DNA from: Amnibacterium sp. CER49
GTDB taxonomy: Bacteria > Actinomycetota > Actinomycetes > Actinomycetales > Microbacteriaceae
Direction of reading: 5' to 3'
Assembly: GCF_029846255.1 (NCBI RefSeq)
Contig: NZ_JARVWQ010000001.1
Span: 682,001 to 746,000 of the forward strand
DNA: 64,000 nt
Made by a program: the position numbers and the translations under genes. Shown in pieces: positions 32,378 to 56,132 of this stretch (position 1 is its first letter; every line of letters starts with the position of its first letter). Below the pieces are notes generated by a model. It ran no database searches. It worked only from the letters and a program-made list of their open reading frames with translations, and had not been told where the DNA came from.

Positions 32378-32414
32378 GGCAACATGAACTGACCCAGATT
32401 TAGAGGACAATCGT

Positions 32415-32429
32415 GCCCCTGCTCGGGGC
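32415..32429. terminator. Small hairpin between convergent genes
   Basis: GCCCC (32415-32419) pairs with GGGGC (32425-32429) in the 61 bases separating the BY-kinase and polymerase stop codons. Weak but well placed as a shared terminator. Confidence 0.4.
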
Positions 32430-32438
32430 TGAGTGTAC

Positions 32439-33746: not shown

Positions 33747-33748
33747 AT

Positions 33749-35643: not shown

Positions 35644-35650
35644 GTGCGAT

Positions 35651-36490: not shown

Positions 36491-36636
36491 AAGAGCTTAG
36501 CCTCCCTTCCTACATTGCGACCTTCGTCGAGCCCGGATCTTGGTGTAAATGACGACGTAAGAGCTCGATCGCCGCGCGACCCGCCGCAGTTACCGAACGA
36601 AAGCCTGGGTGGCCTGCGGGGGTTGCCATCTCATTT

Positions 36637-38828: not shown

Positions 38829-40279
38829 CACCTACTCCTTATCAGAATGAGCATCCTCAAGAGTGCCGCCGTGAGTGCGGTCGTCGTTATCCAAGTCGAG
38901 ACTTGTACGACGACAACGACCAAGTTCGGCTCTGAGTGAAACGTAAGGACCCGTGCAAGGGCTGTAGTGCACACTGCTCCTACAACTGCAGCGATGAAAG
39001 GCGCAAGAGCAGGTTTTATGAGATTCGGAAAGTTCGCAGAGCGGACACGCCCCAGAACCAGAGTGCTTGAGCACCATATTGCAATATACGACATTGACAT
39101 GACCTGTGCCACCGCCGTCGGTCCTGACGGAGCAACTGACACTACGCCAACGATTGCTAATGCTCGACCCGGAAGTTCAGTTAACAAAAGCAAGGACGTG
39201 CGCCCCAAGGCAAGCAGCCCCCAATAGTAGATGTAACCAGCTGCTTGAAAGGCACCGCCAATGGCAAGAACCTGAACAAGACTGCCAGTTTGTCCCCACC
39301 GCGAGCCAAACACAGTACTGACCAAAGTCGGCCCGCATGAAAAAAGCATGCCTAGGAGAGGAAGTGTGACCCAGCAGAGACGCCGTTGTATTCGCTGAAC
39401 CTCCTCGGGGAACCTTCCTTCTCTGATCGCCCTGGCCATGTGCGGAAGCATCACTCGCGTCAGAGGAGTTGCAATTTGTTGAATCGGCAGCGAGACGAGT
39501 TGGAATGCCCTGTTGTACAGACCGGTTGCCGTAGTGCCTTGTAGGCGACCGAGCATTACAGTGTCTATATTTGATCCGATATAATTCAGCACCTGCAAAA
39601 TGCTCGAGTTGCGCCCGAAGCGCAGATGATGCGCCATCGATCCTGCTTTGTTGAATCGAGAGGGCTTCCACCGGTCGCTGAATACCGCGATTAGTAGTTG
39701 AACGTAGGCGGGTATCAAAATCGCGCATGCCAATGCTCCTACGCCACCTTCGAGAAGCGCGGCTGCGACCGCCGCGGCGAAGCCACTCGCCTGCGCTGCG
39801 AGGTCGCCGTATGCAAGCACCCCGACTCTGCCGGCTAGTTGCAGCCGGACACGGTGTTGGACAGCAAAACCGCTCGCAGGAAATATCATCGCCACCGCGC
39901 CGAGATACGCAACGACCGCCGGCGATGAATAGAACTGCGCGGCAAGTGGGGCGATGCATAGCACTAACGCGCCTGCTCCAATGCCTATGGCCCCGTTGAG
40001 CCAGAATAGGTTTGATTGCTCCTGCTGGCTGATGTTCACGGTACGAAGCGCCGAAAGCGAAAGCCCCAAATCCGAAAGCACGGTTGCAAGTCCCGTAATA
40101 GTGGCGCCCATTGCAGCGATGCCGTATGCGCTGGGGGGGAGCAGGCGGGTCAAAACCACCAGGGATGCAATTTGCAGCGCATACCGTCCCCACTGCCCGT
40201 AAAGCGTGCGTGAAACTTGACCGCGACTTAAAGTGGACCATAGCTTCAGAGCTGGCTTACGGATAGTACCTAATCTCAC
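38828..40279 (-). CDS. wzx: Wzx-type polysaccharide flippase
   Basis: A 483-residue polytopic protein of the MOP superfamily (PST family) with about 14 helices. Typical features are the N-terminal GQWGRYALQIASLVVLTRLL, then PPSAYGIAAMGATITGLATV, the conserved loop GRNSSILQVLNYIGSNIDTV, LGRLQGTTATGLYNRAFQLV, and PLTRVMLPHMARAIREGR. It flips lipid-linked repeat units across the membrane for the neighbouring polymerase. GTG start. It lies between two glycosyltransferase genes in one transcription unit. Confidence 0.9.
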   Translation of the reverse strand: MRLGTIRKPALKLWSTLSRGQVSRTLYGQWGRYALQIASLVVLTRLLPPSAYGIAAMGATITGLATVLSDLGLSLSALRTVNISQQEQSNLFWLNGAIGIGAGALVLCIAPLAAQFYSSPAVVAYLGAVAMIFPASGFAVQHRVRLQLAGRVGVLAYGDLAAQASGFAAAVAAALLEGGVGALACAILIPAYVQLLIAVFSDRWKPSRFNKAGSMAHHLRFGRNSSILQVLNYIGSNIDTVMLGRLQGTTATGLYNRAFQLVSLPIQQIATPLTRVMLPHMARAIREGRFPEEVQRIQRRLCWVTLPLLGMLFSCGPTLVSTVFGSRWGQTGSLVQVLAIGGAFQAAGYIYYWGLLALGRTSLLLLTELPGRALAIVGVVSVAPSGPTAVAQVMSMSYIAIWCSSTLVLGRVRSANFPNLIKPALAPFIAAVVGAVCTTALARVLTFHSEPNLVVVVVQVSTWITTTALTAALLRMLILIRSR

Positions 40280-40374
40280 AGCGCACCCGGCATACGTCTA
40301 CTGGTCAAAGTTCATTGATACGACTTTGCAGGCTATTCTCGCATTGTTAGGAGCCGTAGTCGCATTCGCATCGT

Positions 40375-41502
40375 TCAGCTAGGTTCCCCAGGCGATTCTC
40401 GCACCTTGGCAGATTCCGTAAGTACCTCGCCATAGCGAGAACAGACAAGGTGCCAGGTAAACTTGGCTCGGGCACGCTGGATAGTTTCCTGCCGTAGACG
40501 ATCACGCGTATCTGGATCGGACATCACGGCACGTACGCCCGCGTAGATTTCCTCGCTGGTGGCTTGCACGAACACGCCACTGTCGCCGAGAACTTCCTTA
40601 TTGTAAGCCGTGTCTCGGGCAACCACCGGGGCACCAAGCGCCATCGCTTGCACTAGCGCCGGATTCGTGCCGCCCACACTATGGCCGTGGAAGTACACTC
40701 CAGCGTGTTGCCAGAGTGAGTGCAATAAATCATCGTCGCTAACGTGCCCTAGCCATTGTACGTTCGCCAACAACTGCAGTTTTCTTGCCTCCTCGTCGAA
40801 CGATCCGCCGTGGTCGGTCCCCACCAGTACTACGGGCCAATCTTGGGCAAGCGCAGGCACGGCTGCGAAGAACTCGGAGATACTGTTCTCCGGAACGAAA
40901 CGCGCGACCAGCAGGATGTAGCTTCCGTTTACTAGATCAAGAGGTGCTTCTAACTGCCCACGTCGGTCGCCGCCATAGGGAATGTAGTCGCCTGTGACAT
41001 TGAAGTCAGCCCTCCATCGTCTTTCTACTTCGATCGCATCAAAGATGAGGCGGTTCGCAAATTTTGCTGTCATCTTCGCGCCGGCAAAAAACATCTGTCG
41101 AGCGAACCAACTCCACTTTCCACGTTCCCACTCAATGCCGTCGACGTTGACAACGCAGGGGATACCGCGAAGACGCAGCAGCGGAAGGACAAACCCGTTG
41201 GCGACATTCATAACGAGTGCGACGCTGGGCGGTCGAATGACTGCGTGTAGTGCCGCCGTGAATCCGTGCGTTAGCGTCGAAAGAGCCGGGGTACGAATGC
41301 CGTGCGTCTGCACGGACTCAACTCGCGCATCTGCATCGGCGTCGTCTGACTTAACGCTTCCTCGTCTGCCGTACACGGTAACGTTCCATCCGGCATCGAC
41401 CAGGAACGGAGCAAGCTTCCGGACCGCAGTCTCGAAGCCGCCGTAATAGCTCGGGTAGCCCCTGGTGCCAAGAATTGCTACTGAACGCTTCGGCGAAGGC
41501 AT
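40375..41502 (-). CDS. DUF1972/GT4 glycosyltransferase
   Basis: A 375-residue GT-B enzyme whose N-terminal DUF1972 domain (SVAILGTRGYPSYYGGFETA, then VRKLAPFLVDAGWNVTVYG) is typical of rhamnosyltransferases that act directly after the priming sugar (Cps2T/WchF type). The donor domain has VDGIEWERGKWSW, ILLVARFVPENSISEFFAAV, and HSVGGTNPALVQAMALGAPV. GGAG is eight bases from the ATG. It is first in the minus-strand island unit and probably adds the second sugar of the repeat. TTGACG at 41543-41538 could be a -35 element, but no good -10 follows. Confidence 0.87.
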   Translation of the reverse strand: MPSPKRSVAILGTRGYPSYYGGFETAVRKLAPFLVDAGWNVTVYGRRGSVKSDDADADARVESVQTHGIRTPALSTLTHGFTAALHAVIRPPSVALVMNVANGFVLPLLRLRGIPCVVNVDGIEWERGKWSWFARQMFFAGAKMTAKFANRLIFDAIEVERRWRADFNVTGDYIPYGGDRRGQLEAPLDLVNGSYILLVARFVPENSISEFFAAVPALAQDWPVVLVGTDHGGSFDEEARKLQLLANVQWLGHVSDDDLLHSLWQHAGVYFHGHSVGGTNPALVQAMALGAPVVARDTAYNKEVLGDSGVFVQATSEEIYAGVRAVMSDPDTRDRLRQETIQRARAKFTWHLVCSRYGEVLTESAKVRESPGEPS

Positions 41503-41988
41503 TGGTTACTCCATACTCTTTTTTCGCTCCGGGAACTCGTCAAGGCGTCGGGCGGGTAGCAGACGTGAGGAGATTGCCGCTTCGAGGCGCGGACAGCCTG
41601 CCAAGCACTGAATGTCTGGGTCGCGAGAATATCGCGCGTCGACATGTCTTGCCCTATCGACGGCGTCCTGCGCACTGTGGTCACCTTCGATACTTATAGG
41701 CTCAAGGGCTGGTGCTCCGGAGCGTCGTGTGCTCCGCCCCTGTAATTTTGGTTCCGGTCGTCCGTATTGGCACACTCTTGCGATGTAATCCAGCGGCTGG
41801 CGAGCCTGCCCTCAGCTTCGCCTCCACCCCGATACTAGGCCTACCACTTGAGTCTTCGTTTCAACGCTAAGTCGCTGGTACCACGGCTTCCGTAACGCTT
41901 CGGTATGCAGAAGAAGCGGCGCGCCTCAGCCCCTGGTATCGTCGGCGGAAGCGTTTACCTAGCAGGTTCCTGCGATAGTTGGTTGAGT
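41503..41988. other. Gene-free right edge of the low-G+C island
   Basis: About 490 bases with no supported ORF. It would hold the promoter of the minus-strand glycosyltransferase unit (TTGACG at 41543-41538 is the only recognisable piece). Composition rises to the genomic norm beyond it. No att-like repeat or mobility gene noticed. Confidence 0.4.
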
Positions 41989-42798
41989 CTACTGAGAGGT
42001 CATGCCTGTAGGACTTTGCGTGATCGCGCTCGGCGCTACCGTAGGCGACAGCGACCTCCCACAGGCAGCGTCGGGGGCACGTTGCGTGCGGCGTCCTTCG
42101 CTGCCGTGTCGGCTTCTGCTCGTCCCTTCAGGACGACCGCGACGACCAGGACGGTGCAGAGTAGGGCCGGCAGTGCGAGAACGCCCTACCGCAGCCAGCG
42201 CCCGTCGAATGCGCGTGAGCGGAACTGCACTCGCGAGCGAGAATACGGGGCCGAGCGTGACGGGTTTCGCCCGCGCCGCTGCTGGAGGCGACGATCTATT
42301 CCTACCCGGTTCGGCTCTCGCACCGACGGCGCTTCCTGCCCCGGGGTTTATCTGGGCGATGACCTGCTTCGAGAGGTCCGTAGCAGCGGGGCCTGTCCCG
42401 GCCGGTAAGGGCGCCAGGTCGGCCGGTGGCATGACATCTACGATCGGCATCGGGCCGGCGCGATCATGCGCGGGGCGAGGCATCACCGGCCCGGTGTCGC
42501 CTCGAGCCGTGAATGCCCGACAAGCTGCCTTCACCGCGGTGTCGGAAGCGGACGCCATGGTCGTCTGAATCACGTGCGAGTCCCGGGACGCGCTGATTGA
42601 CTCCTGCAGGTCGCTCGGATCGACGTCGTCGCTGTCAACATACTCGTCCAGCGCCCCGGTGTCGGGCCCGACCTGCGCGCTGTCCTCGGCCGGCACAGCG
42701 GTTGCAGGGGCGCCCACCTCTCGGGAGCCTTCGCCCAGGGTGCCCTCCGGCGCCGTGTCGCGGTGCGGGTCGGGATCGCGCTCGTCCGGATCGGTCAC
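41989..42798 (-). pseudogene. Copy 1 of duplicated single-pass membrane protein (decayed)
   Basis: Homologous to the intact genes at 43893-44729 and 57544-58356. GTG start with VTDPDERDPDPHRD, then EYVDSDDVDPSDLQESISAS and AVKAACRAFTARGDTGPV are collinear with copy 2. The C-terminal half has left frame. The transmembrane region is recognisable only in another frame (AFDGRWLR, stop, then TVLVVAVVLKGRAEADTAAK), with TAG at 42188-42186 where copies 2 and 3 have Tyr. So at least one frameshift plus one nonsense mutation has inactivated it. Confidence 0.78.
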
Positions 42799-43892: not shown

Positions 43893-44729
43893 TCACTGGC
43901 CAGGGGGCGTGAGCGTCGGGCCCGGCGAGAGTGTTGTGCTTCCTCGCGGCGTCGGCGACGCAGCCGAAGCGGTCGAGGCCAGCGTCGGCGGCACGTATCG
44001 CGACGACTCCTTGGCAGCCGCGTCCGCCTCCGCGCGCGTCTTCAGCACGACGGCGATCACCAGCACGACGCAGATGAGGGCCATGAGCGCGAGGGCGCCG
44101 TACTGCAACCAGCGCCGATCAAAGGCACTCGAGCCGGCGCGCCCTCGCAGCCGGCTGCTCGACGTCGGCGACGACCACCCCGACCGCCGTTGCGGTTGAA
44201 CACGGTTCCCCTTGGGCTCTGAGGTTGGCCCCGGCGCTGCCTCCCCGGACGGAAGTACAGTGCTGGCGCCCGGTACGGCGGGCTCAGGCGCAGCAGGCAT
44301 GCGAGCAGGCATCGGAGCGGTCGCGGCGGGGCGCGGTGTTGCGTCGGGCGCCGAGGCGTCGATTACCGGCATCGGGCCCGTGCGGTTGTACGTCGGAGGC
44401 GGGGGGGCAACCGGCCCGGCGTCACCTCGCGCTGTGAAGGCCCGGCGGGCCGCCTCGACGGCCGGATCCGGAGCTGTGGGCAGGGTCGGCTGGTTTACTG
44501 AGGAGTGCCGCGACGCGCTGAGCGGTTCGGGCAGGTCGCTGAGGTCGACGTCCTCGCTGTCGGCGTACTCGTCAATCCCACGGACCGCCGAGTCGACCGG
44601 CAAGTGAGGCTGATCGAGCGGTTTGGCGTTTGCTGGGGCCGGCTTCTCCCGGCCGCCATCTCCCTCGGTCGACTTCAGCCGGGCGGCAACGTGGGGCAGG
44701 TCGGGATCGTGCTCGTCCGGATCGGTCAC
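43893..44729 (-). CDS. Copy 2 of duplicated single-pass membrane protein
   Basis: A 278-residue protein of no recognised family. The acidic N-terminus (VTDPDEHDPDLPHVAARL) is followed by EYADSEDVDLSDLPEPLSAS and a conserved box PAVEAARRAFTARGDAGPV. A Pro/Ala-rich disordered stretch with RTGPMPVIDAS comes next. Near the C-terminus is one transmembrane helix (LQYGALALMALICVVLVIAV) followed by VLKTRAEADAAAKESSRYV and a Ser/Thr/Pro tail. Topology is inferred as cytosolic N-terminus with a short exposed tail. GTG start at 44727-44729, conserved in all three copies; no good ribosome-binding site. Confidence 0.7.
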   Translation of the reverse strand: MTDPDEHDPDLPHVAARLKSTEGDGGREKPAPANAKPLDQPHLPVDSAVRGIDEYADSEDVDLSDLPEPLSASRHSSVNQPTLPTAPDPAVEAARRAFTARGDAGPVAPPPPTYNRTGPMPVIDASAPDATPRPAATAPMPARMPAAPEPAVPGASTVLPSGEAAPGPTSEPKGNRVQPQRRSGWSSPTSSSRLRGRAGSSAFDRRWLQYGALALMALICVVLVIAVVLKTRAEADAAAKESSRYVPPTLASTASAASPTPRGSTTLSPGPTLTPPGQ

Positions 44730-44816
44730 CTGTTCATCGTAGGGACGCGGTAGCCGCGTTCGACAGCGATGCATGGCTTCTCGTGATCCGTGAATCCCAG
44801 GGATCTGCCGGACCGT

Positions 44817-45350: not shown

Positions 45351-46391
45351 GTGCCCCCGAACGCTGACGCCGCAGCCGCGGGAGCATATCTCTCCGGTCA
45401 CGAGCGCCCGCGGAAGTACGTATTCGTGGCGTCGACCGGGGGGCATCTGGCACAGCTGCGCCGGTTCTCGAAGCGCATGAACGCGCATTCGGATTCGCTC
45501 TGGGTGACAACGAGGACCCCCCAGAGCGAATCCCTGCTCGAGGGCTGCCGCGTGCTGTACCTCCCCTACGTGGGCGCGCGCGATCCATTCGGCGTCCTCC
45601 GCACCTTCCGACAGTCCGGCCGGCTGTTCATCAACGAGCGCTTCGATGTCGCTATCAGCACCGGCTCGGCCTTCGCCATCGGCGTGTTCGCGCAGGCGGC
45701 GCTGCACCACGTGCCACGCATCTTCGTCGAGAGCGTGAGCCGCGTCACCGGCCCGTCGATGTCGGGGCGGATCATCGCCCTTCTGCACCTCGCAGACCTC
45801 TACACGCAGCACAAGGGCTGGGCGACCGGTCGGTGGAAGCCGCACCCGAGCGTCCTCGCCGAATACGCGCCGGCACCTGCTGTCCAGCAGCCCCCGCCCG
45901 ACGTGGACGGGCACTCGGTGTTCGTCACGCTCGGCACGTTCCGTCGCTACCGGTTCGACAGCCTCGTCGAGGCGCTGCTCCGCACGGGGCTCGTAGGCCC
46001 CCGCACCACCTGGCAGCTCGGCGCGACGGACCGGTCCGACCTGCCCGGCCGCGTCGAGGTCGAGCTGAGCGCCGCCGAGTTCGAGACCGAGCTGTCACGC
46101 GCGGATGTGGTGGTGACGCACGCCGGTGTGGGCACGATCCTCTCCCTGCTCGAAGCCGGACGCTTCCCCGTGGTCGTGCCGAGGCGCCGCGCTCGCCACG
46201 AGCACGTCGACGACCACCAGAGCCAGATCGCGGACCTGCTTCGCTCGCTGGGCATCGCCCGCGTCGTCGAAGCGCCGGAGCTGACCCGCGAAGACCTGCT
46301 AGCGGCGACGACCATGAGCGTCGTACCCCGCGACTCGGTGCCACTACCCAGGCCCGAGGAATCCATCTCATCCGGAAGCGACCCATCATGA
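45351..46391 (+). CDS. Fused Alg14/Alg13-like (PssD/PssE) glycosyltransferase
   Basis: A 346-residue single-chain version of the two-subunit GT1/GT28-type enzymes. The N-terminal half matches Alg14/PssD (YVFVASTGGHLAQLRRFSKR; then ISTGSAFAIGVFAQAALHHV). The C-terminal half matches Alg13/PssE (SVFVTLGTFRRYRFDSLVEA; VVTHAGVGTILSLLEAGRFP; HVDDHQSQIADLL). In other exopolysaccharide loci these transfer glucuronate or GlcNAc to the lipid-linked acceptor, which fits the UDP-glucose dehydrogenase gene at 22 kb. The GTG start lacks a clear ribosome-binding site. Its stop overlaps the next ATG (ATGA). Confidence 0.85.
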   Translation: MPPNADAAAAGAYLSGHERPRKYVFVASTGGHLAQLRRFSKRMNAHSDSLWVTTRTPQSESLLEGCRVLYLPYVGARDPFGVLRTFRQSGRLFINERFDVAISTGSAFAIGVFAQAALHHVPRIFVESVSRVTGPSMSGRIIALLHLADLYTQHKGWATGRWKPHPSVLAEYAPAPAVQQPPPDVDGHSVFVTLGTFRRYRFDSLVEALLRTGLVGPRTTWQLGATDRSDLPGRVEVELSAAEFETELSRADVVVTHAGVGTILSLLEAGRFPVVVPRRRARHEHVDDHQSQIADLLRSLGIARVVEAPELTREDLLAATTMSVVPRDSVPLPRPEESISSGSDPS

Positions 46392-47464
46392 TCCGGCTCG
46401 GAATCGTCGGCCTCGGCAAGATGGGGCTCTCGCACTACGCCATCGCCAATTCGACGCCCGGCGCGCAAGTCGTCGCGGTATGCGACTCGTCGACGCTGCT
46501 TCTGGGATTCATCGACCGATACGGTCGGGTCAACACCTACACCTCGATGCCGGAGATGCTCGCCGCCGAGCGGCTCGACGGCGTCATCATCTCCACGCCG
46601 AATCACCTCCACGCGGAGATGGTGCGAACGGCGCTCGCCGCTGGGGTCGCCGTGTTCTGCGAGAAGCCGTTCACGCTCTCCGCTCACGAGTCCATCGATC
46701 TCACCGAGTTGGCGAGCGCGAACGGTCTGGTGACCCAGGTCGGCTACCACTACCGGTACGTGGCCACGTTCCAGGAGATGAAGCACCTGATCGAGGGCGG
46801 GGCGCTCGGCAAGGTCACGCACGCCGAGGCGGAGGCCTACGGTCCCGTGGTGGTCCGACCGGCGAACGCGACCTGGCGGAGCAAGAAGAGCGCAGGCGGC
46901 GGAGCCCTCTACGACTACGCACCGCACCCCATCAATCTGTTGACCTGGCTCTTCGGCGCACCGAAGACCGCGATCGGCACGGTGATGACCTCCGTCTTCT
47001 CGGCGGACACCGAGGACGAGGTGCTCGGTACCTTCCAGTGGCCCGACTCGCTGAGCGCGCACCTGAGCGTCAGCTGGTCGGACACCTCCGAGCGCAAGAT
47101 GGCCACCAAGGTCTCGCTCTGGGGCGCCGAGGGCAAGATCGTCGCCGATCGGCAGGAGATCCGCGTCTTCCTCCGGCACGCCGCGGAGACCTCGCGACGC
47201 GCCTACTCGGCGGGCTGGACGACCCTCAACATCGCCGAACTCACCCCGCCGGTGGCCTACTACCTTCGCGGCGAGGAGTACTCGCTCCAGATGGAGGACT
47301 TCGTCGCCCGGGTGCGGAACCGAGCGTTGGACGGTGTGAACGACTTCCGCTCCGCCGCCACCACCGACGAGGCCATCGAGCTGCTGACCGGGGCGAACAG
47401 CGGCCGTCAGCAGGAGATCGAGAAGGTCGTGGCTCCGCGCCGCCGACTCTGGGTGAGGAGCTGA
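46388..47464 (+). CDS. Gfo/Idh/MocA family oxidoreductase
   Basis: A 358-residue NAD(P)-dependent sugar dehydrogenase. The Rossmann start is MIRLGIVGLGKMGLSHYAIA; the signature lysine is in FCEKPFTLSAHES; GYHYRYVATFQEMKHLIEGG and GGGALYDYAPHPINLLTWLF form the C-terminal active-site part. Members in polysaccharide clusters modify UDP-sugars (for example oxidation at C3) or make unusual precursors. The ATG overlaps the previous gene as ATGA and the next gene starts one base after its stop, so the three are one operon. Confidence 0.88.
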   Translation: MIRLGIVGLGKMGLSHYAIANSTPGAQVVAVCDSSTLLLGFIDRYGRVNTYTSMPEMLAAERLDGVIISTPNHLHAEMVRTALAAGVAVFCEKPFTLSAHESIDLTELASANGLVTQVGYHYRYVATFQEMKHLIEGGALGKVTHAEAEAYGPVVVRPANATWRSKKSAGGGALYDYAPHPINLLTWLFGAPKTAIGTVMTSVFSADTEDEVLGTFQWPDSLSAHLSVSWSDTSERKMATKVSLWGAEGKIVADRQEIRVFLRHAAETSRRAYSAGWTTLNIAELTPPVAYYLRGEEYSLQMEDFVARVRNRALDGVNDFRSAATTDEAIELLTGANSGRQQEIEKVVAPRRRLWVRS

Positions 47465-47465
47465 C

Positions 47466-48341
47466 GTGCCCGACCGGCTCATCTTCGGCGACAACCAGTT
47501 CTTCGGCGTGAACCACATGTCGGAGGACAAAGCGCGTGCCCAGGCGATCAGGTTCCAGACCGACGACGCCGTTCTCGAGGTGCTGGAAGCAGCGAACCGC
47601 AACGGCATCCGGTCATTCATGTGCACGACGCACGACCGGCTCGGCAGCATCGTGCCGAGCGTTCTGCAGCGCCCGGAGGCGTTTCCGGATCAGCAGTTCC
47701 TCCCCTGCATGCCCTACGCCCACAAGTACTCGAACGCGATGGCGGAGCAGGGGATCATCGGTTCCCTGCAGGGCTTCCTGCCCGAGCGCGGCCGGATCGA
47801 AGCCCTCGTCCGGAGCGGCAGGTCACTCGCCTCGCGCGACATCGCGGGCGTCGCGACCTTGTTGATCGACGCCGAGATGCGCCCCTTCCGCAACGCTTCG
47901 ACCCCGGTCGTCTTCCTGCAGAACGTGACCGTCGACCTCATCCTGGGACTCGGGGCGTACGAGATCTTCCAGGTGTTCGCCGACCATGTGCGCACCCGCT
48001 ACAACGCCGAGCCCGGGTTCATCACGATGAACGTCCCACGCCTGCTCGACGCGCTCCGCATGCAGGAGATCGAGAACCCGCTCGTCTGCGCGAACGTCAA
48101 CAAGCTGGGCTTCCGCATGTCGGGCGGCGTCGAGGCCTATGAAGAGGCGCTGCGCCGCGCCGACTTCAGACTGATCGCGATGTCGATCTTCGCGTCGGGC
48201 GCGATCCCGCCGGCGGAGGCTGTGCGGTGGGTGTGCGGTCTTCCGAACATCGAGAGCATCGTGTTCGGAGCGTCGAGCGAGCGCAACATCGTCTCGACCC
48301 GCGACCTGGTCGAGACGTACTGGCGCCGCCAGCCGGTGTAA
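47466..48341 (+). CDS. Uncharacterised protein in sugar-modification operon
   Basis: A 291-residue soluble protein, GTG start one base after the oxidoreductase stop. It opens RLIFGDNQFFGVNHMSEDKA. It contains CTTHDRLGSIVPSVLQRPEA, FLPCMPYAHKYSNAMAEQGI, FITMNVPRLLDALRMQEIEN and CANVNKLGFRMSGGVEAYEE. It ends with GLPNIESIVFGASSERNIVS, a wording like the C-terminal strand of aldo/keto-reductase barrels. The alternating hydrophobic pattern suggests a TIM barrel, but no catalytic tetrad is identifiable. Tight coupling to the Gfo/Idh/MocA gene suggests joint action on a nucleotide sugar or its keto intermediate. Family not recognised. Confidence 0.6.
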   Translation: MPDRLIFGDNQFFGVNHMSEDKARAQAIRFQTDDAVLEVLEAANRNGIRSFMCTTHDRLGSIVPSVLQRPEAFPDQQFLPCMPYAHKYSNAMAEQGIIGSLQGFLPERGRIEALVRSGRSLASRDIAGVATLLIDAEMRPFRNASTPVVFLQNVTVDLILGLGAYEIFQVFADHVRTRYNAEPGFITMNVPRLLDALRMQEIENPLVCANVNKLGFRMSGGVEAYEEALRRADFRLIAMSIFASGAIPPAEAVRWVCGLPNIESIVFGASSERNIVSTRDLVETYWRRQPV

Positions 48342-48479: not shown

Positions 48480-49928
48480 TCAGGCGGAAGGAGCCGGGCG
48501 TGCCTCGCCGAGTCCCGGGGCCGGACGGTGCTGCGGCGCTGCCGCCTCTTGCGCTAGGGGGGTCGGCGAGTAGCCGTACCCGTAGCCGTAGCCATACCCG
48601 TAGCCGTCCGTCGCCCGCTGCGGCGCCATCGATAGCACAGTGCCGGACACGGCGGCGCCGACGGCATCGAGCGACGCGAGCGAGGTGTGCACCGCATGCT
48701 TCGTCGTCTTGCCTGCTGCGACGACGAGCATCACGGTGCTGGCGGCCGGGGCGAGGGCCGCGGTGTCGGCGACCGGCACGAGCGGCGCCGAGTCGATGAC
48801 GACGAGGTCGTACTGCGCCTCGAGCTGGCGGACCAGGCCGCGCATCTCCTCGGACGCGAGCAGGTCGGTCGGATTCGGCGGGAGCGGACCAGCGGGGATG
48901 ACGTCCAGCTGCCCGTCCCCCCAGTGCTGCACGGCTTCGGAAAGGCCCACCCGTCCGATGAGGAGGTCGCTGAGACCCACACCGCCGTCGATGCCGAAGT
49001 ACGGCGCGACTGAGGGCTTGCGCAGGTCGGCGTCGACGACGACGACCCGCGCCCCCGCATTCGCCGCGACCAGCGCAAGGTTCGCGGCGATGGTGCTCTT
49101 CCCCTCGCCGGGCCCCGGCGAGGTGACGATCACGCTCGTACGCTTCGCGAGCGTCGAGAGGTACCGCAGGTTCGTGCGCAGGCGCCGGAACTCCTCGACG
49201 CGGCGCCCGGAGCGCGGGTCGGTGCCGGTCAGTAGCGCGTGGCTGAACGCGCGCAGGTCGTAGGCGACGGCGCCGAGCGACGGGGATCTCACCAGGTCGC
49301 TCAGGTCGCTGACGCTGCGCACCTTGGTGTCGAGGAGGTTGCGCAGGAAGACGAACAGCACGCCCAGCACGAGCCCGAGCGCTGCGCCGATGGCGAGGTA
49401 GAGCGGCAGGTTCGGGGACGACGGCGCAGTCGGCGGATCGGCCGGCTGCAGCATCGTGATCTTGACGGGGCTCTCGCCGCTCTTCACGTTCTGCGGCGCG
49501 ATGCGCGACACCGCGTCGACGAAGGTGCGGGAGATCGCGTTCGAGAGGGCCGCGGCCCGGTTCGGCGAAGGGTCGGTGACGCCGATCGTGATGATGACCG
49601 TGTTCGGCGGGATGCTCGTCGTGACGTTCTTCGCGAACTCACGCACCGGCTGCTGGATCCTGAACGCCTTGCGCACGGGCTCGAGCACGAGGGCCGTCGG
49701 GACGATGTCGGCGTACGACTTCACCTGATCCTGCGCGAAGGTACCGCCCTGCGTGAGGTCGGAGGCCGTGTTCGCCGACTGCGTCGACACGAAGACCTCG
49801 CTGACTGCGTTGTACCCAGGCCGCTGCACGAGGGAGAGCGCGGTCGCACCGATCAGGCCCAGGAGCAGGACCGCCACGATCGTGGGCCACCCCCGCCGGA
49901 GCACGGTCAACGCGTCAGTCAGTTCCAT
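48480..49928 (-). CDS. Wzz/BY-kinase with YG-repeat tail
   Basis: A 482-residue polysaccharide co-polymerase/tyrosine kinase. The Wzz part lies between helices at about 15-33 and 173-196 (GYNAVSEVFVSTQSANTASD). The kinase has Walker A TSPGPGEGKSTIAANLA (about 267-283), Walker A' VVVDADLRKP and Walker B LVVIDSAPLVPVADTA. The C-terminal phospho-acceptor cluster is a strict YG repeat, DGYGYGYGYGYGYSPT, with six tyrosines. The repeat is encoded by near-identical hexamers and could vary in length by slippage. Last gene of the murA-like operon; a hairpin and TTGACG box upstream hint at its own promoter. Confidence 0.91.
   Translation of the reverse strand: MELTDALTVLRRGWPTIVAVLLLGLIGATALSLVQRPGYNAVSEVFVSTQSANTASDLTQGGTFAQDQVKSYADIVPTALVLEPVRKAFRIQQPVREFAKNVTTSIPPNTVIITIGVTDPSPNRAAALSNAISRTFVDAVSRIAPQNVKSGESPVKITMLQPADPPTAPSSPNLPLYLAIGAALGLVLGVLFVFLRNLLDTKVRSVSDLSDLVRSPSLGAVAYDLRAFSHALLTGTDPRSGRRVEEFRRLRTNLRYLSTLAKRTSVIVTSPGPGEGKSTIAANLALVAANAGARVVVVDADLRKPSVAPYFGIDGGVGLSDLLIGRVGLSEAVQHWGDGQLDVIPAGPLPPNPTDLLASEEMRGLVRQLEAQYDLVVIDSAPLVPVADTAALAPAASTVMLVVAAGKTTKHAVHTSLASLDAVGAAVSGTVLSMAPQRATDGYGYGYGYGYGYSPTPLAQEAAAPQHRPAPGLGEARPAPSA
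48569..48606 (-). repeat. Hexameric YG-codon repeat
   Basis: Six tandem Tyr-Gly codon pairs (TAC/TAT GGC/GGG) encode the autophosphorylation tail of the BY-kinase. Unit number could change by replication slippage. Confidence 0.7.
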
Positions 49929-50060: not shown

Positions 50061-51416
50061 TCAAGAAAGTATCGATGTGCTCTTGCCATCCGGGGAACCG
50101 GCGGCACCGATCAGCGCAACCCGCTGGCGCGCGCGACTGGTGGTCCGGCGAGGCTGGACGGTGGCCTCCTGCAGCTCGGCGGCGAGCACCAGGAAGGTCA
50201 ATGCGAGCACCGTGCTCGGCTTGCCGGCGTACTCCACGCCCGTCAGGCTCGCGAGCAGCGTCGTGAGCACCAGGAACAGCGAGTACGGCACGCGCTGGAG
50301 CCGCACCCGCACCCAGATGGCCCCGACGAGCTGTGCGAGCACGACCGCGACGGTGAACCAGACACCGAGCATCCCTGTCTCGAAATACGCCTGAAGGAAC
50401 GAGTCGTGTGCATGCGGAGCGCGGTAACGACCCCAATAGGCGTCGAACACCGGACTGATGAAGCTCGAGAACCCATATCCGAACGGTCCGGAACCTTGCG
50501 CCGCGGCGATGGTGCGCTCCCAGACGTTCGTGCGGCCACTGAGCGACAAATCGACACCGTCGGACCCGAGTGAGTTGAAGATGTCGGCGGCGTTCAACGC
50601 GCCCCACACGAGCAATCCGCCGACGACGACCCCGACGAGCACCCGGAGGATCGGTCCCCGCGTCATCCCGAGGGTGAGCACGAGCGCGATGATGATGTAG
50701 ACGGAGTTCAACCGCGCGAGGGCGGCCACGAACGCCAGCCCCAGCAGCACGAAGGCGAACCTCCGATAGACCGTCGATCCGGGCAGCAGCGAGCGGAATC
50801 GACCGTTGGCCATCGCGACGAGGCAGAGGCCGACCACCGTGCCCATCACGAGGCCGAGACGCTGCTGATGGTTGAACACCCCGCGGAGTTCGGGGACACC
50901 GAGCCCCGTGACATGCGTCTGGAAGGCACCATCGCCGAACACCAGGATGGCCGCGAAGGAGAGGAAGGCGAGCACGACAGCGACCTTCGTCACCATCCGC
51001 AGCTGCTCCTCGGCGCGCACGGTGCGGACGACGAACGTCGCGGTCCACAGGATCCCCGCGTAGACGACCTGCACGACCGTCGCGAGCGGGCTCACCGACC
51101 ACAGCGTCGAGAGGGCGCAATACAGGAGGTAGGCCAGGTACACGAGGTCCGGCCAGAAGAAGCGCGGCATCTCCTGGGTGCGGTCACGACGCAAGGACGT
51201 GATCGCGATGGCGATCGCGATCATCGCGAGCGCGCTCATGACCACGTTCCAGGGCTGGAAGTTGTCGAACGGGTTGGACATCTCGATCGAGCAGATCGCC
51301 AGCACCGTCACGGACGCCGCCCGCCGAACGCCCTGCCCCGCCCCGGGAGCGCCGGCTCCAGACGCGGTGGCGGGCGCAGCCCTTCCGCTCTGCACGACTC
51401 CCCTGCTCCCAGCCAT
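50061..51416 (-). CDS. wzy: Wzy-type polymerase / O-antigen ligase family, second set
   Basis: A 451-residue polytopic protein with about 12 helices. Family signs are CALSTLWSVSPLATVVQVVY, GVPELRGVFNHQQRLGLVMG, FVAALARLNSVYIIIALVLT, and the large loop DLSLSGRTNVWERTIAAAQG followed by GPFGYGFSSF and YRAPHAHDSFLQAYFETGML. The ATG at 51414-51416 lies seven bases after the GT2 stop; longer frames run into that gene. It differs strongly in sequence and codon use from the island polymerase at 32.4 kb, so it is a separate assembly line rather than a recent duplicate. Confidence 0.86.
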   Translation of the reverse strand: MAGSRGVVQSGRAAPATASGAGAPGAGQGVRRAASVTVLAICSIEMSNPFDNFQPWNVVMSALAMIAIAIAITSLRRDRTQEMPRFFWPDLVYLAYLLYCALSTLWSVSPLATVVQVVYAGILWTATFVVRTVRAEEQLRMVTKVAVVLAFLSFAAILVFGDGAFQTHVTGLGVPELRGVFNHQQRLGLVMGTVVGLCLVAMANGRFRSLLPGSTVYRRFAFVLLGLAFVAALARLNSVYIIIALVLTLGMTRGPILRVLVGVVVGGLLVWGALNAADIFNSLGSDGVDLSLSGRTNVWERTIAAAQGSGPFGYGFSSFISPVFDAYWGRYRAPHAHDSFLQAYFETGMLGVWFTVAVVLAQLVGAIWVRVRLQRVPYSLFLVLTTLLASLTGVEYAGKPSTVLALTFLVLAAELQEATVQPRRTTSRARQRVALIGAAGSPDGKSTSILS

Positions 51417-51423
51417 CGCCCCG

Positions 51424-52446
51424 CTACGCCCTCTGTCCGCGAGGAGAGGCGACGGAAGCGGCGCCGCCCTCGACGCCGAGCAGCCGGAACACGACGGCAC
51501 GGATCCTCGCAGCCCAGGTGCGGCCGAGCAGCGCGGCGAAGACGAGCAGCGCCACCCGGGGCAGGCGCCCTGTGATGTACGACCGAGCGATCTCCGTCGC
51601 GTCGTCGTACGCTCCCCACACCGCCGAACGGACGCTGCCCTTGAACAGCTTCTTCTGCAGCTTCGGGTCCTCGGGCGTCACCAGAGCCAGCGGCCCTTCG
51701 CTCCGAAGGCGCTCGACGAGACGCTCGCCCTCCCTGGGCGGCAGGGTCGCGACCCGCTGCGCGATGATCGAGTAGCGGCCGTGCACTGCGAGCTTCTTCG
51801 GGTCGTACGAGACGCCGTCGAACTGGATGTACCGGTCGTAGAGGTGCTCGGGCACCGTCGAGAACCGGCACAGCCTGATCATCCGCAGCCACAGGTCGTA
51901 GTCCTGGGCGTTCGTGAAGGCGGTGCGGTAGCCGCCCGCCTGCTCGTAGAAGCTGCGCCGCAGCATGACCTCACCGTGGGAGAAGACGTTGCCGCGGGTC
52001 ACGAGCCGCTCGAAGTCCATCGTCGTGGCGTCAGGGGTGCGGAGCCGCCGGGCCCCGGTCGCCTCGACGACGTTCGCGTAGTGGCAGCCGACGACGCCGA
52101 CACCCGGGTCGCCGTCGAGCAGCTCGGATTGCAGCCGGATGCGGCCGGGCAGGGAGACGTCGCCTGACCCTTGAATGGCGATGTACTCCCCCGTGGTCTG
52201 CGAGATCGCCTGTCGCAGCCCTGTGACGAAGCCGAGATTGCGCTCGTGCACCACGAAGCGCAGGCGCGGATCGTCGAGCTCGTCGGCCAGCCGCGCCAGC
52301 TCGTCGGCGGTCCCGTCCTTCGAGGCGTCATCGAACACGAGCAACTCGAGGTCGTCGTAGCTCTGCTCGAGAATCGAGGTGATGGTCCTGCGGAGGACCG
52401 ACCGCCGGTTGTAGTAGCCCGTGACCACGGACACCTTCGCGCTCAT
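51424..52446 (-). CDS. Family-2 glycosyltransferase
   Basis: A 340-residue GT-A enzyme: MSAKVSVVTGYYNRRSVLRR, LLVFDDASKDGTADELARLA, VHERNLGFVTGLRQAISQTT. The metal-site region reads IAIQGSGDVSLPGRI, with SGD where most relatives have a fuller acidic triad. The acceptor part has TNAQDYDLWLRMIRLCRFST. A C-terminal amphipathic segment (LPRVALLVFAALLGRTWAAR) may tether it to the membrane. ATG start ten bases after the flippase stop. Confidence 0.85.
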   Translation of the reverse strand: MSAKVSVVTGYYNRRSVLRRTITSILEQSYDDLELLVFDDASKDGTADELARLADELDDPRLRFVVHERNLGFVTGLRQAISQTTGEYIAIQGSGDVSLPGRIRLQSELLDGDPGVGVVGCHYANVVEATGARRLRTPDATTMDFERLVTRGNVFSHGEVMLRRSFYEQAGGYRTAFTNAQDYDLWLRMIRLCRFSTVPEHLYDRYIQFDGVSYDPKKLAVHGRYSIIAQRVATLPPREGERLVERLRSEGPLALVTPEDPKLQKKLFKGSVRSAVWGAYDDATEIARSYITGRLPRVALLVFAALLGRTWAARIRAVVFRLLGVEGGAASVASPRGQRA

Positions 52447-52456
52447 GCTGTCTCCA

Positions 52457-53776
52457 TCACCTCTGCAGCAGTCCGTGGATCGCGGTCCTCGATCGTCGCT
52501 GCACGCTCGTCACGAGCGCCGCCACCTCGGACCGGGGCGGCAGGAAGAACGTCCGCATCGGGATGCGGTAGTTGCGCCGGCAGAGGATGGCATAGCCGAC
52601 GAGCAGCACGACCTGACCGATCACCAGAGCCGCGCTGCCGCCGGGTACGCCCAGACCCGGCACCAGGAGCCACGACGCGACGAGGTTCACTCCGAGGCTG
52701 ACCGCGATCAGCGGGGTGCCGAAGGTGGGCCGGCCGATGCCCGCGATGGTCGAGTAGACGACCTTGGTCGCGGCGGTCGGTGCGAGGCTCAGCGCGAGCA
52801 CCTGCAGCGCGCCAGCGGCTCCTTCGTAGTCCGAGCCGAGCAGCACCCTGACGAGCACCGGAGCGGCGGCGGCGATGAGTCCCGCGATGAGCAGGAACCC
52901 CCAGAGCAGCCACGCCGCGAGCCTCGCGCTCTCCTCGAGCACCGCACGTGCGTCCACCTGTCGCGCGGTTCGAGAGAAGATCACCATGCCGAGCGCCGTC
53001 GATGCCTCGAGGAAGATCTCGTTGACGCGGACCGCTGCGTAGAACTGCCCCGCCGCTTGTGCTCCCTGGAACCCCTGGATCACGAACATCGAGATCCGCG
53101 AGCACAGGGTGATGAGGAAGAGGTTGAGCGCGAAGAAGATGCCGTAGCGCAGCATCGGGAGCAGGGACCGCCCCTGGGGCCGGAAGGCTCCCCTCTCGCC
53201 GCGAAGCGCGAACCAGATCGAGGTCGGGATCGTGAGCAGGTAGCAGAGCGACTGGACCCACAGGGAGGCTTCCAGCGTCATCGTGCCGGTGACGGCCAGG
53301 AGCGCCACACCGATGAGCAGCAGGACCCGCGGCAGGGTGTCGCCGAGCGTGAAGGCGCGGATGTTGCCACGGCCGAGGTTCACGCCCTGAAGGAGCGTGA
53401 TGAGCACGGTCCCGGCCATGCTGGTGAAGATGATCAGCGCCGCGGTCGCGGGACTGTGAACCGGCGCGTGAGTACCGAACAGGGCGTAGACGAACGCCGA
53501 GGCGAGCAAGGTCAGAGGTAGCCAGAGGGCGATCCCTGTGGCCGCGGCACCGGCTCCGGTCAGCCGACGCTGCCCGATCCAGTACGCGAACGACTGGCGC
53601 AGCCCGAGCGTGCCGAGCGTCGCGGCGAGGGCGAGCGCGCTCGTCAGCACGCCGAACCAGCCGAACTGGGCGGCCGACAGCGACCGCGCGAGCAGCACGA
53701 ACGTGACGAGCTGAGCGATGCGGATGACCCCTCGCCCGAAGAGCACGGTCGCGACCTGCGCGGGGAGGGAGCTCAC
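52457..53776 (-). CDS. wzx: Wzx-type flippase, second set
   Basis: A 439-residue polytopic MOP-superfamily protein with about 12-14 helices: GRGVIRIAQLVTFVLLARSL, SAAQFGWFGVLTSALALAAT, YGIFFALNLFLITLCSRISM, FVIQGFQGAQAAGQFYAAVR and RVLLGSDYEGAAGALQVLAL. GTG start at 53774-53776 overlaps the murB-like stop (GTGA). Longer in-frame extensions are Arg/Pro-rich antisense-like sequence. It partners the polymerase at 50-51.4 kb. Confidence 0.87.
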   Translation of the reverse strand: MSSLPAQVATVLFGRGVIRIAQLVTFVLLARSLSAAQFGWFGVLTSALALAATLGTLGLRQSFAYWIGQRRLTGAGAAATGIALWLPLTLLASAFVYALFGTHAPVHSPATAALIIFTSMAGTVLITLLQGVNLGRGNIRAFTLGDTLPRVLLLIGVALLAVTGTMTLEASLWVQSLCYLLTIPTSIWFALRGERGAFRPQGRSLLPMLRYGIFFALNLFLITLCSRISMFVIQGFQGAQAAGQFYAAVRVNEIFLEASTALGMVIFSRTARQVDARAVLEESARLAAWLLWGFLLIAGLIAAAAPVLVRVLLGSDYEGAAGALQVLALSLAPTAATKVVYSTIAGIGRPTFGTPLIAVSLGVNLVASWLLVPGLGVPGGSAALVIGQVVLLVGYAILCRRNYRIPMRTFFLPPRSEVAALVTSVQRRSRTAIHGLLQR

Positions 53777-54798
53777 GACCCGTACCCGCTGCGTTGCAGC
53801 AGCCCGACGCCCTCGTCGTCGTCCTCGCGCTGTGACCACCGGTGATCGGCAGCGAGGTGCGCGGGGACGACTGCACCGGCAGGTGACACGTAGCGGACCT
53901 CGCACTCGAGCCAGTGCCCGGTCGCGCGGTGCACGGCGCGTCGCGCGAGTGCGATCAGCCAGAGGACGTCGTCGGAGCTGGCGCCGTCGATGTTGACGAT
54001 GAAGTTCGCGTGCCGCTCGGAGATCATCGCGCCACCGCGACGGACTCCCTTCAGGCCCGCCAGCTCGATCACTCTGCCTGGAGGGCCCACTGATTCGTAC
54101 AGCTCAGGACTCGACAGGAACGTCGATCCCCCGCTCGGCAGGTCGAGTGGGAACCGGGCCGCCCGCGAGCTCACGATCGCATCCATCCGGTCTGCGATCT
54201 CGGCCGGTTCACCGAGCTCGAGCTCGAGCTCGACCTCGGTGATGAGGATCCCGAGGTGCTGCAGCGCGGACGAGCGGTAGGCGAACTCGCACTCCTCCTG
54301 GGTCAGCTGCACCAGCTCACCCTCGCGATCGACGCCGGTGACGCGAACGACCCGCTCACCGATCCCGCGGCGCATGCTCCCGCCGTTCATGAGCACCAGG
54401 CCACCGAGGGTGCCGGGGATGCCGACCGTGTGCTCGATACCGGTCAGGCCGGCGGCACCCACTGCGCGCGCAAGAGCTGGCACCGACACGCCCGCCTGAG
54501 CGACGACCCGGCGGCCGTCGATCGACACCTCCGACATCTGCGCGCCGATCTGCAGCACGGTCTCGTCGTGCTGCGCGCTATCGAACAGCAGGTTGGAGGT
54601 GCCACCGACCGCGATCCACGGCTCACCGCTGCGGGCGAGCGTGGCGACCGTTGCGGCGGCGGCGACGCCGGTTCGCGGTTCGGCGACCAATCGGACGCTC
54701 CCACCGATGCGCCAGGAGGTGAAGCGGCTGAGCGGCAGGTCGCGCTCGACGATCACGTCGTCGAGGCGCGCGATCGCCCGCGCCGTCTCGACGGTCAT
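53773..54798 (-). CDS. MurB-like UDP-N-acetylenolpyruvylglucosamine reductase in polysaccharide operon
   Basis: A 341-residue FAD enzyme homologue. MurB reduces UDP-GlcNAc-enolpyruvate to UDP-MurNAc with NADPH. The FAD domain shows TSWRIGGSVRLVAEP, WIAVGGTSNLLFDS, GIEHTVGIPGTLGGLVLMNG and the YR-x-S substrate motif in CEFAYRSSALQHLG. The proton-donor Ser is in LPSGGSTFLSSP and the C-terminal Glu in HWLECEVRYVSPAG, so all three catalytic positions appear intact. The ATG overlaps the murA-like stop (ATGA). A flippase follows by overlap, so the product very likely feeds the polysaccharide rather than, or as well as, peptidoglycan. Confidence 0.88.
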   Translation of the reverse strand: MTVETARAIARLDDVIVERDLPLSRFTSWRIGGSVRLVAEPRTGVAAAATVATLARSGEPWIAVGGTSNLLFDSAQHDETVLQIGAQMSEVSIDGRRVVAQAGVSVPALARAVGAAGLTGIEHTVGIPGTLGGLVLMNGGSMRRGIGERVVRVTGVDREGELVQLTQEECEFAYRSSALQHLGILITEVELELELGEPAEIADRMDAIVSSRAARFPLDLPSGGSTFLSSPELYESVGPPGRVIELAGLKGVRRGGAMISERHANFIVNIDGASSDDVLWLIALARRAVHRATGHWLECEVRYVSPAGAVVPAHLAADHRWSQREDDDEGVGLLQRSGYGS

Positions 54799-56132
54799 GC
54801 GGTGGAGACCAGTTCCCGGTCCACCGGGGACACGTCCTCGTGCACCTGGATGCGAGACCCCAGGCGATGCAGCTTGCCCTCGAGGTTGTCGTAGCCGCGC
54901 ATCGCCATCTGAACGTCCTGCACGACCGAGCGGCCCGGCGCCACAAGAGCGGCGAGCACGGAGGCCATTGACCCGCGGAGGTCGGTCGAGGTGGAGACCG
55001 CGGGCTGGAACCGTGCCGGGCCGCGCACCGTGATCCTGCCGGGCATCGCCTCGAGGTGCGACCCCTGGACGTGCTTCGCCAGCTCCCTGACGAAGGCGAT
55101 GCGCTCGGGATATCGATAGTCGTAGATGCGCGAGGTGCCGGCGCCGACGAGGGCGAGCAACACGAAGAAGGCCTGCATGTCGGAGATCACGCCAGGATGC
55201 GCACCGCACGCGAGCTCGAAGGGCTCGACCCGCCCCGAGGGGAAGCAGTCCGGCTTGATCTGGATCGAGCGGCTGTTCGCGTAGAAGTCGATGCCCGCGT
55301 GCTGCAGGTGCGTCAGCGGCACCTCCATCGCCTCGAACGGCACGCCCTCGACGGTGAGGTCACCGCGGGCGATGACGGCGTACACGATCCATGTGAGCGC
55401 CTCGATACGGTCGGGCATCACCGGCATCCGCGCGCCCGCGAGCAGCCCGGCACGTCCCTGCACCACCAGATGGCTCGTTCCGTAGACCTCGATGACCGCG
55501 CCCATCTGGCGCAGGAGCTTGATCAAGTCCTCGATCTCCGGCGTGATGTACGCGTTCGAGATGCGTGTCTCGCCGGCGGCGACACTGGCGCAGAGCAGCG
55601 CGTTCTCGGTGCCGCCGACCGTCGAGATCGGGAAGTCGATGCTGCTGCCTCGGAGACCCGCCGGGGCGGCCACGTAGATGTGGTCCGCGCGCTCCTCGAC
55701 GGTGCAGCCGAGCCGTTCCCACACCATGACATGCAGGTCGTAGCCACGCTGACCGGATGGCCCCGGCCCGATGGGGCAACCGCCGGGGTAGGGCACATAG
55801 GCGACCCCGGATCGAGCGAGCTGCGCAGCCGCGAGCAGGTACGTGGTGCGGACGGGCAGGTCGAGCTGTGCGCGCTCGAGTTGGTGCGGGGTGAAGCCTC
55901 GAGCGTCGACGCGCAGGCGTCCGTCGCCGCCGTCGACCTCGACGGAAGCCCCCATCGCACGGGCGAAACCGATCTTGTGCCCGACGTCGACGAGCGACGA
56001 CGGGAAGTTGCTCAGATCGACCGGCTCGTCGCTCAGCAGCGCGGCAGCGAGAAGTCGAGTGGCCGAGTTCTTCGCGCCACTGACCGTGATCCGGCCGACG
56101 GGAGCGATACCACCATCGATCACCGCATACAT
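54795..56132 (-). CDS. MurA-like UDP-GlcNAc 1-carboxyvinyltransferase in polysaccharide operon
   Basis: A 445-residue EPSP-synthase-fold enzyme (housekeeping MurA is about 420). MurA adds enolpyruvate from PEP to O3 of UDP-GlcNAc. Catalytic positions are kept: Lys21-Asn22 in SGAKNSATRLLAAALL, Arg95, the PEP-binding Cys119 in YPGGCPIGPG, Asp318 in ISDMQAFF, and Arg386 in STDLRGSMAS. The Cys loop differs from the usual GGCAIGARPVDLH by an insertion (GPGPSGQRGYDLH), suggesting a divergent paralogue with possibly altered specificity. First gene of the six-gene minus-strand operon; no clear ribosome-binding site or promoter found. Confidence 0.88.
   Translation of the reverse strand: MYAVIDGGIAPVGRITVSGAKNSATRLLAAALLSDEPVDLSNFPSSLVDVGHKIGFARAMGASVEVDGGDGRLRVDARGFTPHQLERAQLDLPVRTTYLLAAAQLARSGVAYVPYPGGCPIGPGPSGQRGYDLHVMVWERLGCTVEERADHIYVAAPAGLRGSSIDFPISTVGGTENALLCASVAAGETRISNAYITPEIEDLIKLLRQMGAVIEVYGTSHLVVQGRAGLLAGARMPVMPDRIEALTWIVYAVIARGDLTVEGVPFEAMEVPLTHLQHAGIDFYANSRSIQIKPDCFPSGRVEPFELACGAHPGVISDMQAFFVLLALVGAGTSRIYDYRYPERIAFVRELAKHVQGSHLEAMPGRITVRGPARFQPAVSTSTDLRGSMASVLAALVAPGRSVVQDVQMAMRGYDNLEGKLHRLGSRIQVHEDVSPVDRELVSTA

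Follow-up and report, generated by a model that had tools for sequence, protein, structure and literature searches.

A MurA-MurB pair in a Wzx/Wzy polysaccharide operon of Amnibacterium sp. CER49 as a probable route to a lactyl-ether sugar

Why would a polysaccharide operon carry its own homologues of the peptidoglycan enzymes MurA and MurB? The question is raised by a 64,000-nucleotide stretch of Amnibacterium sp. CER49 (contig NZ_JARVWQ010000001.1, positions 682,001 to 746,000), the whole of which is called the window here. Our analysis indicates that the pair very probably makes a lactyl-ether sugar nucleotide for a polysaccharide. We favor, with somewhat better than even confidence, a sugar-nucleotide pathway dedicated to a Wzx/Wzy surface polysaccharide, most likely making uridine diphosphate (UDP)-3-O-lactyl-glucuronic acid (UDP-3-O-lactyl-GlcA). 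The genes in question are as follows.

54795 to 56132, minus strand: MurA-like enolpyruvyl transferase of 445 amino acids (family models, predicted fold); the codon of Arg340, at 55113-55115, corresponds to E. coli MurA position 327.
53773 to 54798, minus strand: MurB-like enolpyruvyl reductase of 341 amino acids (family models, tree, motifs).
52457 to 53776, minus strand: Wzx-type flippase (PF01943).
51424 to 52446, minus strand: GT2 glycosyltransferase, of the kind repeatedly linked to the pair (PF00535, tree of GT2s).
50061 to 51500, minus strand: Wzy-type polymerase (PF04932; Wzy_C, 4.7e-13); its start is uncertain and its open reading frame (ORF) overlaps the GT2 gene.
48480 to 49928, minus strand: Wzz/BY-kinase fusion for chain-length control (Wzz and AAA_31 matches).

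Direct reading of the sequence and family searches upheld the gene order, strand and overlaps given in the preliminary description of this locus. The murA-like and murB-like genes share ATGA, and the murB stop overlaps the GTG start of wzx, at 53776, in GTGA. MurA, MurB, Wzx, GT2, Wzy and Wzz/BY-kinase form one minus-strand run, so that a flippase, a polymerase, a glycosyltransferase and a Wzz/BY-kinase stand together as expected of a Wzx/Wzy operon. As had also been claimed, there are no other peptidoglycan genes nearby, none being found among the 18 other window ORFs scanned. The guanine-plus-cytosine (G+C) content of the window is near 70%, in keeping with the actinobacterium assumed in the preliminary description, and that of the pair operon 67-71%.

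The pair had been described as dedicated, and the genome (two contigs), with its separate housekeeping copies, bears this out. It holds three PF00275 and two MurB_C matches: a housekeeping murA lies at C1:501854, next to ORFs that by eye resemble leuD, plsC and gpsA, and a second murB lies at C1:1057984. The third PF00275 gene was taken as aroA because it showed no MurA similarity at 1e-15. The window MurA-like protein matches PF00275 at 3e-47 and is 32-34% identical to the housekeeping MurA of its own genome; it scores 311.2 bits against the MurA equivalog TIGR01072, under the cut-off of 392.7. The MurB-like protein matches PF02873 at 1.3e-24 and narrowly misses the cut-off of NF010480 (251.2 against 259).

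A scan of bacterial and archaeal genomes with MurA alone as the query returned 14 loci, including a remnant in Luteimonas suaedae. MurA identity to the window protein was 67% in Luteimonas, 63-64% in Croceicoccus, 56-58% in Alteromonas and Ningiella, 58% in Caulobacteraceae, 58% in Paraglaciecola (a fragment), 54% in Planctomycetota (a fragment from a metagenome-assembled genome, MAG), 53% in Cyclobacteriaceae, 52% in Vibrio furnissii and 46% in Bacteroidales. Plasmid records added a Haematobacter MurA (63%) and, from Rhizobium, Agrobacterium and Qingshengfaniella, members of a second subgroup (37-40%). Searches of 59 relatives, ranging from genus to order, gave no pair-type MurA: full-length matches there reached at most 35% and one partial match 38%, the housekeeping level. 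None was found in 395 other genomes drawn from the phylum. At 1e-58, nine of 396 phylum genomes (own included) gave matches, namely the own genome and eight at 35-38% that were taken as housekeeping; the three of these eight placed in the MurA tree group with housekeeping MurAs. Pair-type MurAs are also rare in the families that carry them, with both subgroups counted: 6 of 295 Alteromonas-family, 5 of 397 Croceicoccus-family and 3 of 395 Luteimonas-family genomes, in draws that scored no more than four or five candidates per genome and in which L187 and L188 were the only weak matches inspected. Judged by sequence comparison, the window pair is not a local duplication, because its nearest relatives are in Luteimonas, a Haematobacter plasmid, Croceicoccus, Alteromonas, Vibrio, Bacteroidota and Planctomycetota. 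The pair appears to be a distinct mobile MurA-MurB module, often with the GT2, in several phyla. The actinobacterial setting in which it was first framed does not hold, the pair type being found mostly in Gram-negatives.

The separation from housekeeping enzymes extends to these relatives. In a check that covered the named host genomes, as distinct from the hosts of plasmid and unnamed loci, all 13 carry a canonical murA above the TIGR01072 cut-off (439-608 bits) and a second murB; the pair MurAs of the same 13 genomes fall under that cut-off (231-338 bits, two being fragments). In a MurA tree of 38 rows, built without the fragments L016 and L018, a branch (98/93) sets all 16 pair rows apart from the 21 housekeeping rows; the tree program warns of long branches, including one joining the two pair subgroups. 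A MurB tree of 32 rows, from which L008 was left out as a near-copy of L007, places 16 of the 17 pair rows in one clade (100/99). Neither MurA nor MurB groups with the vertical copy of its host, and the trees thus agree with the separate clade anticipated for the pair, one MurB of 17 excepted.

To follow the gene neighborhood we used 27 pair loci (the window, L006-L018, L032-L035 and L178-L186), picked by MurA alone. A MurB lies within about 2 kb of the pair-type MurA in every one of them, that of L184 being divergent; two housekeeping-murA loci taken as a control gave no match above 55 bits to pair MurB queries. Wzx-, Wzy-, Wzc- or ligase-type matches above 50 bits, some of them weak, were found in 20 of the 27. 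A Wzx homologue also follows murA-murB in Luteimonas (L006) and Caulobacteraceae (L011), and the Luteimonas locus, which has a Wzy homologue as well, shares the window order murA-murB-wzx-GT2-wzy. The same GT2 type occurs in 15 pair loci overall: one per locus in 11 of the 19 loci first compared (a set that included the remnant L019), and, judged by its best match, in 4 of 9 loci compared afterwards. In a tree these 11 GT2s form a group distinct (100/100) from 7 further GT2s encoded at the same loci.

At two loci the genes stand alone together or are missing together. On a Qingshengfaniella plasmid (L034:9956-13193), murA-murB-GT2 sits among proline, betaine and arabinonate genes with no polysaccharide cluster. 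In L. suaedae (L019:10001-10105), about 18 murA-like codons are left, in frame with a short tail and immediately ahead of wzx; the 20 kb examined lack murA, murB and the GT2 type of the module and retain a dehydrogenase, an epimerase and wzx. MurA, MurB and often this GT2 therefore seem to form a unit, given the linkage in 27 of 27 loci, the recurrence of the GT2, the Qingshengfaniella cassette and the loss in L. suaedae. A Paraglaciecola genome (L061:722-2026) carries a very divergent extra MurA paralogue whose contig also has a partial MurB match. This protein has no Arg at position 327, and its branch in the tree is very long; it was not counted as a pair member, being a different paralogue, and is possibly another MurA-like specialization.

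Both enzymes look divergent but catalytically complete, as first described. The window MurA retains the catalytic set K22, N23, C115, R120, D305, R331, D369 and R397 (E. coli numbers), D305 corresponding to Asp318, and the MurB-like protein retains the YR, GS and C-terminal Glu motifs, which we take to be catalytic. A deep mutational scan ranks E. coli MurA residues by tolerance to change (PMC9842644; this and all other papers given by PMC number are cited for the excerpts available). The ten least tolerant residues are retained in the window protein, and S162 is a tolerated Thr. An AlphaFold model of the window MurA has a mean predicted local distance difference test (pLDDT) value of 89, and its best fold matches are MurA structures (TM-score 0.85-0.93, e.g. 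1UAE, 2Z2C).

The pair MurAs differ from housekeeping MurAs at several positions throughout their clade. One of these is E. coli position 327 (window Arg340), presumably in contact with sugar O4 and O6: it is Arg in all 26 pair MurAs covering it and in none of 23 housekeeping MurAs (Ile in 15, Val in 6, Met in 2). Docking studies place Val327 in the MurA active site with Asp305 and Phe328 (PMC10816260, PMC9031695). A positive charge directed at the sugar would suit an acidic acceptor, and Arg at this position would fit a uronic acid better than a hexosamine. Next to the UDP-binding Arg120, position 122 is Tyr throughout the pair clade and Ile, Val, Met or Leu in housekeeping rows. Residues 120, 162 and 164 bind the UDP part of the substrate (PMC9842644), and all are retained in pair MurAs (162 as Ser or Thr). 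In MurB, 16 of 17 pair proteins have F-x-S plus one inserted residue in place of the FKN motif, the changed position being the Lys that precedes the Asn. We had considered loss of the diphosphate-binding Asn as a sign of a changed substrate and withdrew it, since Asn is present in 9 of 17 (Asp in 4, Ser in 3, Arg in 1). The altered loop after the catalytic Cys, which the preliminary description took as a hint of changed substrate use, did not survive as a mark of specificity: the insertion is present in 7 of the 26 pair MurAs whose sequence covers it (window, L006, L007, L008, L032, L035 and L184). The loop is a subgroup trait, real in the window protein, rather than a mark of the enzyme type. 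Residues 117-128 of this loop have pLDDT under 50 in the model.

From the observed gene content, overlaps, housekeeping copies, catalytic residues, clades, 27/27 MurB linkage and Arg signature, we infer the chemistry, the role of the GT2 and the acceptor sugar. The MurA-like enzyme would attach enolpyruvate from phosphoenolpyruvate to a UDP-sugar at its 3-OH; the MurB-like flavoenzyme would reduce the enolpyruvyl group to an (R)-1-carboxyethyl (lactyl) ether. With UDP-glucuronic acid (UDP-GlcA) as the acceptor, its carboxylate bound by Arg340, the product would be UDP-3-O-lactyl-GlcA. The linked GT2 probably transfers the lactyl sugar onto a lipid-linked repeat unit, which Wzx would flip and Wzy would polymerize under Wzz/BY-kinase control. 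A lactyl-ether sugar would be the natural product because the pair is dedicated and catalytically complete, MurB is present in 27 of 27 loci and matches to polysaccharide genes, some weak, are present in 20 of 27; its synthesis is the best reading of the module. This part of the original proposal stands, and its hexosamine or N-acetylmuramic acid (MurNAc) part is now less favored than a uronic acid. The observation is thus confirmed and stronger than first stated, and a uronic-acid acceptor is a sharper, testable alternative to the hexosamine.

UDP-GlcA itself is close to an even call as the acceptor, on the following grounds. Deepsane contains 3-O-(1-carboxyethyl)-D-GlcA, and the Alteromonas 1644 polysaccharide contains the 3-lactyl sugar 3Lac-GlcA (PMC2901825). 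Alteromonas genomes carry the pair, one annotated locus having Wzx, Wzy and glycosyltransferase genes. We prefer UDP-3-O-lactyl-GlcA over MurNAc because Alteromonas polysaccharides contain this sugar. The fullest form of the proposal can be put only tentatively, at rather less than even confidence: murA-murB-GT2, moving horizontally as a cassette and present in Pseudomonadota, Bacteroidota, this high-GC lineage and (as a MAG fragment) Planctomycetota, would make UDP-3-O-lactyl-glucuronic acid, a diacidic sugar, by MurA/MurB chemistry redirected by the sugar-pocket Arg. A possible source of UDP-GlcA is encoded in the window:

22008 to 23318, minus strand: UDP-glucose 6-dehydrogenase-like protein, possible UDP-GlcA supply (PF03721).

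This is the only PF03721 match above cut-off in the genome. UDP-glucose-dehydrogenase-like genes occur in 7 of the 27 pair loci, and all 14 named genomes carry a dehydrogenase at least 36% identical to one of five that we examined. For these five, UDP-glucose models beat UDP-N-acetylglucosamine (UDP-GlcNAc) and UDP-N-acetylmannosamine ones, all under cut-offs. Four pairs (L032, L035, L182 and L183) have an epimerase-like gene nearby. This dehydrogenase and epimerase context is suggestive only.

The nearest alternative is that the pair makes ordinary UDP-MurNAc apart from peptidoglycan, with MurNAc as a repeat-unit sugar. Muramic acid does occur as an O-antigen sugar, both catalytic sets are complete, and the nearest solved folds are MurAs, several with UDP-GlcNAc. 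Moreover, the MurB-like protein exceeds the cut-off of the MurB equivalog TIGR00179 (169.9 bits against 144.5) and the MurA-like protein that of the MurA subfamily NF006873 (329 against 297), scores that also count against a uronic-acid product. However, housekeeping enzymes already supply UDP-MurNAc, and the separate clade with a pocket Arg in place of Ile, Val or Met (26/26) and the altered MurB motif (16/17) point to a changed substrate, without showing it; we consider the MurNAc explanation unlikely. A backup peptidoglycan MurA/MurB that lies in a polysaccharide operon by chance is highly improbable. Duplicate MurAs exist in many bacteria, but chance placement fits poorly with overlapping genes, a MurB neighbor at all 27 loci, a polysaccharide setting in different phyla, location on plasmids and a MurA clade apart from all 21 housekeeping rows.

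It may also be that the pair acts on another nucleotide sugar, such as UDP-galacturonic acid, UDP-N-acetylglucosaminuronic acid, UDP-glucose or a GDP- or dTDP-sugar, to give a different lactyl ether. Lactyl ethers are found on rhamnose O-3 and mannose O-4 in capsules of Rhodococcus equi, a member of an actinobacterial genus (PMC12786566), and on mannose O-4 in Salinivibrio (PMC8466920), and the clade-wide Tyr122 adjoins the UDP-binding Arg120. Yet the UDP-binding residues are retained, and lactyl sites other than O-3 would require new geometry, which makes this explanation distinctly unlikely.

Several further points weigh against the synthesis of UDP-3-O-lactyl-GlcA by the pair. The substrate of the pair clade is a prediction from sequence, and the chemical link runs by genus, no single genome examined joining the pair to a solved polysaccharide. 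The pocket role of position 327 is taken from docking studies, and its Arg could reflect a single ancestral change that serves some other function. Some loci are not independent of each other, L007/L008 and L009/L015 being near-copies; the Cyclobacteriaceae pair MurB (L013) falls outside the MurB pair clade, and the MurB of L185 is weak (30%). The GT2 type was not found in 12 of the 27 loci in the stretches examined, 5 of these 12 sitting on contigs no longer than about 7 kb. Local dehydrogenase linkage is limited to the 7 loci, and in the window the gene lies about 31 kb from the pair. Dehydrogenase presence as a test for UDP-GlcA has no power and proves nothing, because 56 of the 60 genomes in the relatives draw, the own genome among them, have the family above cut-off. 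The best PDB match of the epimerase is labeled dTDP-glucose 4,6-dehydratase (5u4q), followed by 6zl6 and later MoeE5, both of which we take to be UDP-GlcA 4-epimerases. The likeness of the GT2 to chondroitin synthase, its best PDB match, was dropped as a clue to GlcA transfer after an unrelated window GT2 at 33749 scored higher; this match is uninformative.

The window holds other genes of polysaccharide interest. Near the pair operon lies one more glycosyltransferase:

45351 to 46391, plus strand: PssD/PssE/WelK-like glycosyltransferase, possible member of the same pathway (all scores below model cut-offs).

Beside it, at 46397-48341 and convergent with the pair operon, are a Gfo/Idh/MocA oxidoreductase and a protein without a Pfam match, perhaps another sugar-modifying step. 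A second Wzx/Wzy-type polysaccharide cluster at 30000-42000 has a G+C content of 56-60% against 67-79% for the rest of the window and is perhaps a recent arrival. Near it, two related predicted proteins (41989-42798, without a Pfam match, and 43893-44774) share 46% identity along a stretch.

Capsules, O antigens and marine exopolysaccharides have been reported to contain lactyl-ether sugars (PMC12786566, PMC8466920, PMC2901825). Our literature search, with most subscription papers outside it, found no MurA/MurB pair tied to exopolysaccharide sugars and no enzyme route to 3-O-lactyl uronic acids; in the excerpt of PMC12492903, the one mention of murA and murB is in a table of nucleotide sugars. 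The module provides a specific route to 3-O-lactyl uronic acids that can be put to the test and, if the proposal is true, would explain the synthesis of a known but unexplained group of acidic sugars. In it, a core pathway of the cell wall would have been copied into the mobile chemistry of polysaccharides, and Arg at E. coli MurA position 327 provides a signature for recognizing pair genes now annotated plain murA.

Among known systems, peptidoglycan MurA and MurB resemble the pair in fold, catalytic residues and expected reaction order; the pair differs in its separate clades, Arg327, altered MurB FKN motif, MurA scores below TIGR01072 and Wzx/Wzy/GT2 neighbors. NikO, to our knowledge without a MurB partner, is like the pair MurA a MurA homologue repurposed outside peptidoglycan. 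It is more distant in sequence (122 bits) and ranks below MurAs by both sequence and fold, standing at rank 44 in the structure search with our model, with AroA lower. Its acceptor also differs, being a nucleotide: NikO (PDB 4FQD) is the enolpyruvyl transferase of nikkomycin synthesis and acts on uridine monophosphate (PMC6801904). A genetic basis for a lactyl-ether sugar is likewise indicated for the Shigella boydii 17 O antigen by a title, cited in PMC5643014, on two genes for glucolactilic acid. We set aside a relation to such E. coli and Shigella genes when the V. furnissii pair MurA DNA gave no blastn match in an E. coli collection, a search that distant homologues would escape. The closest chemical parallel is the 3-O-(1-carboxyethyl)-GlcA of Alteromonas 1644 and deepsane, for which we found no genes reported: it is identical to the predicted product, and the same genus carries the pair.

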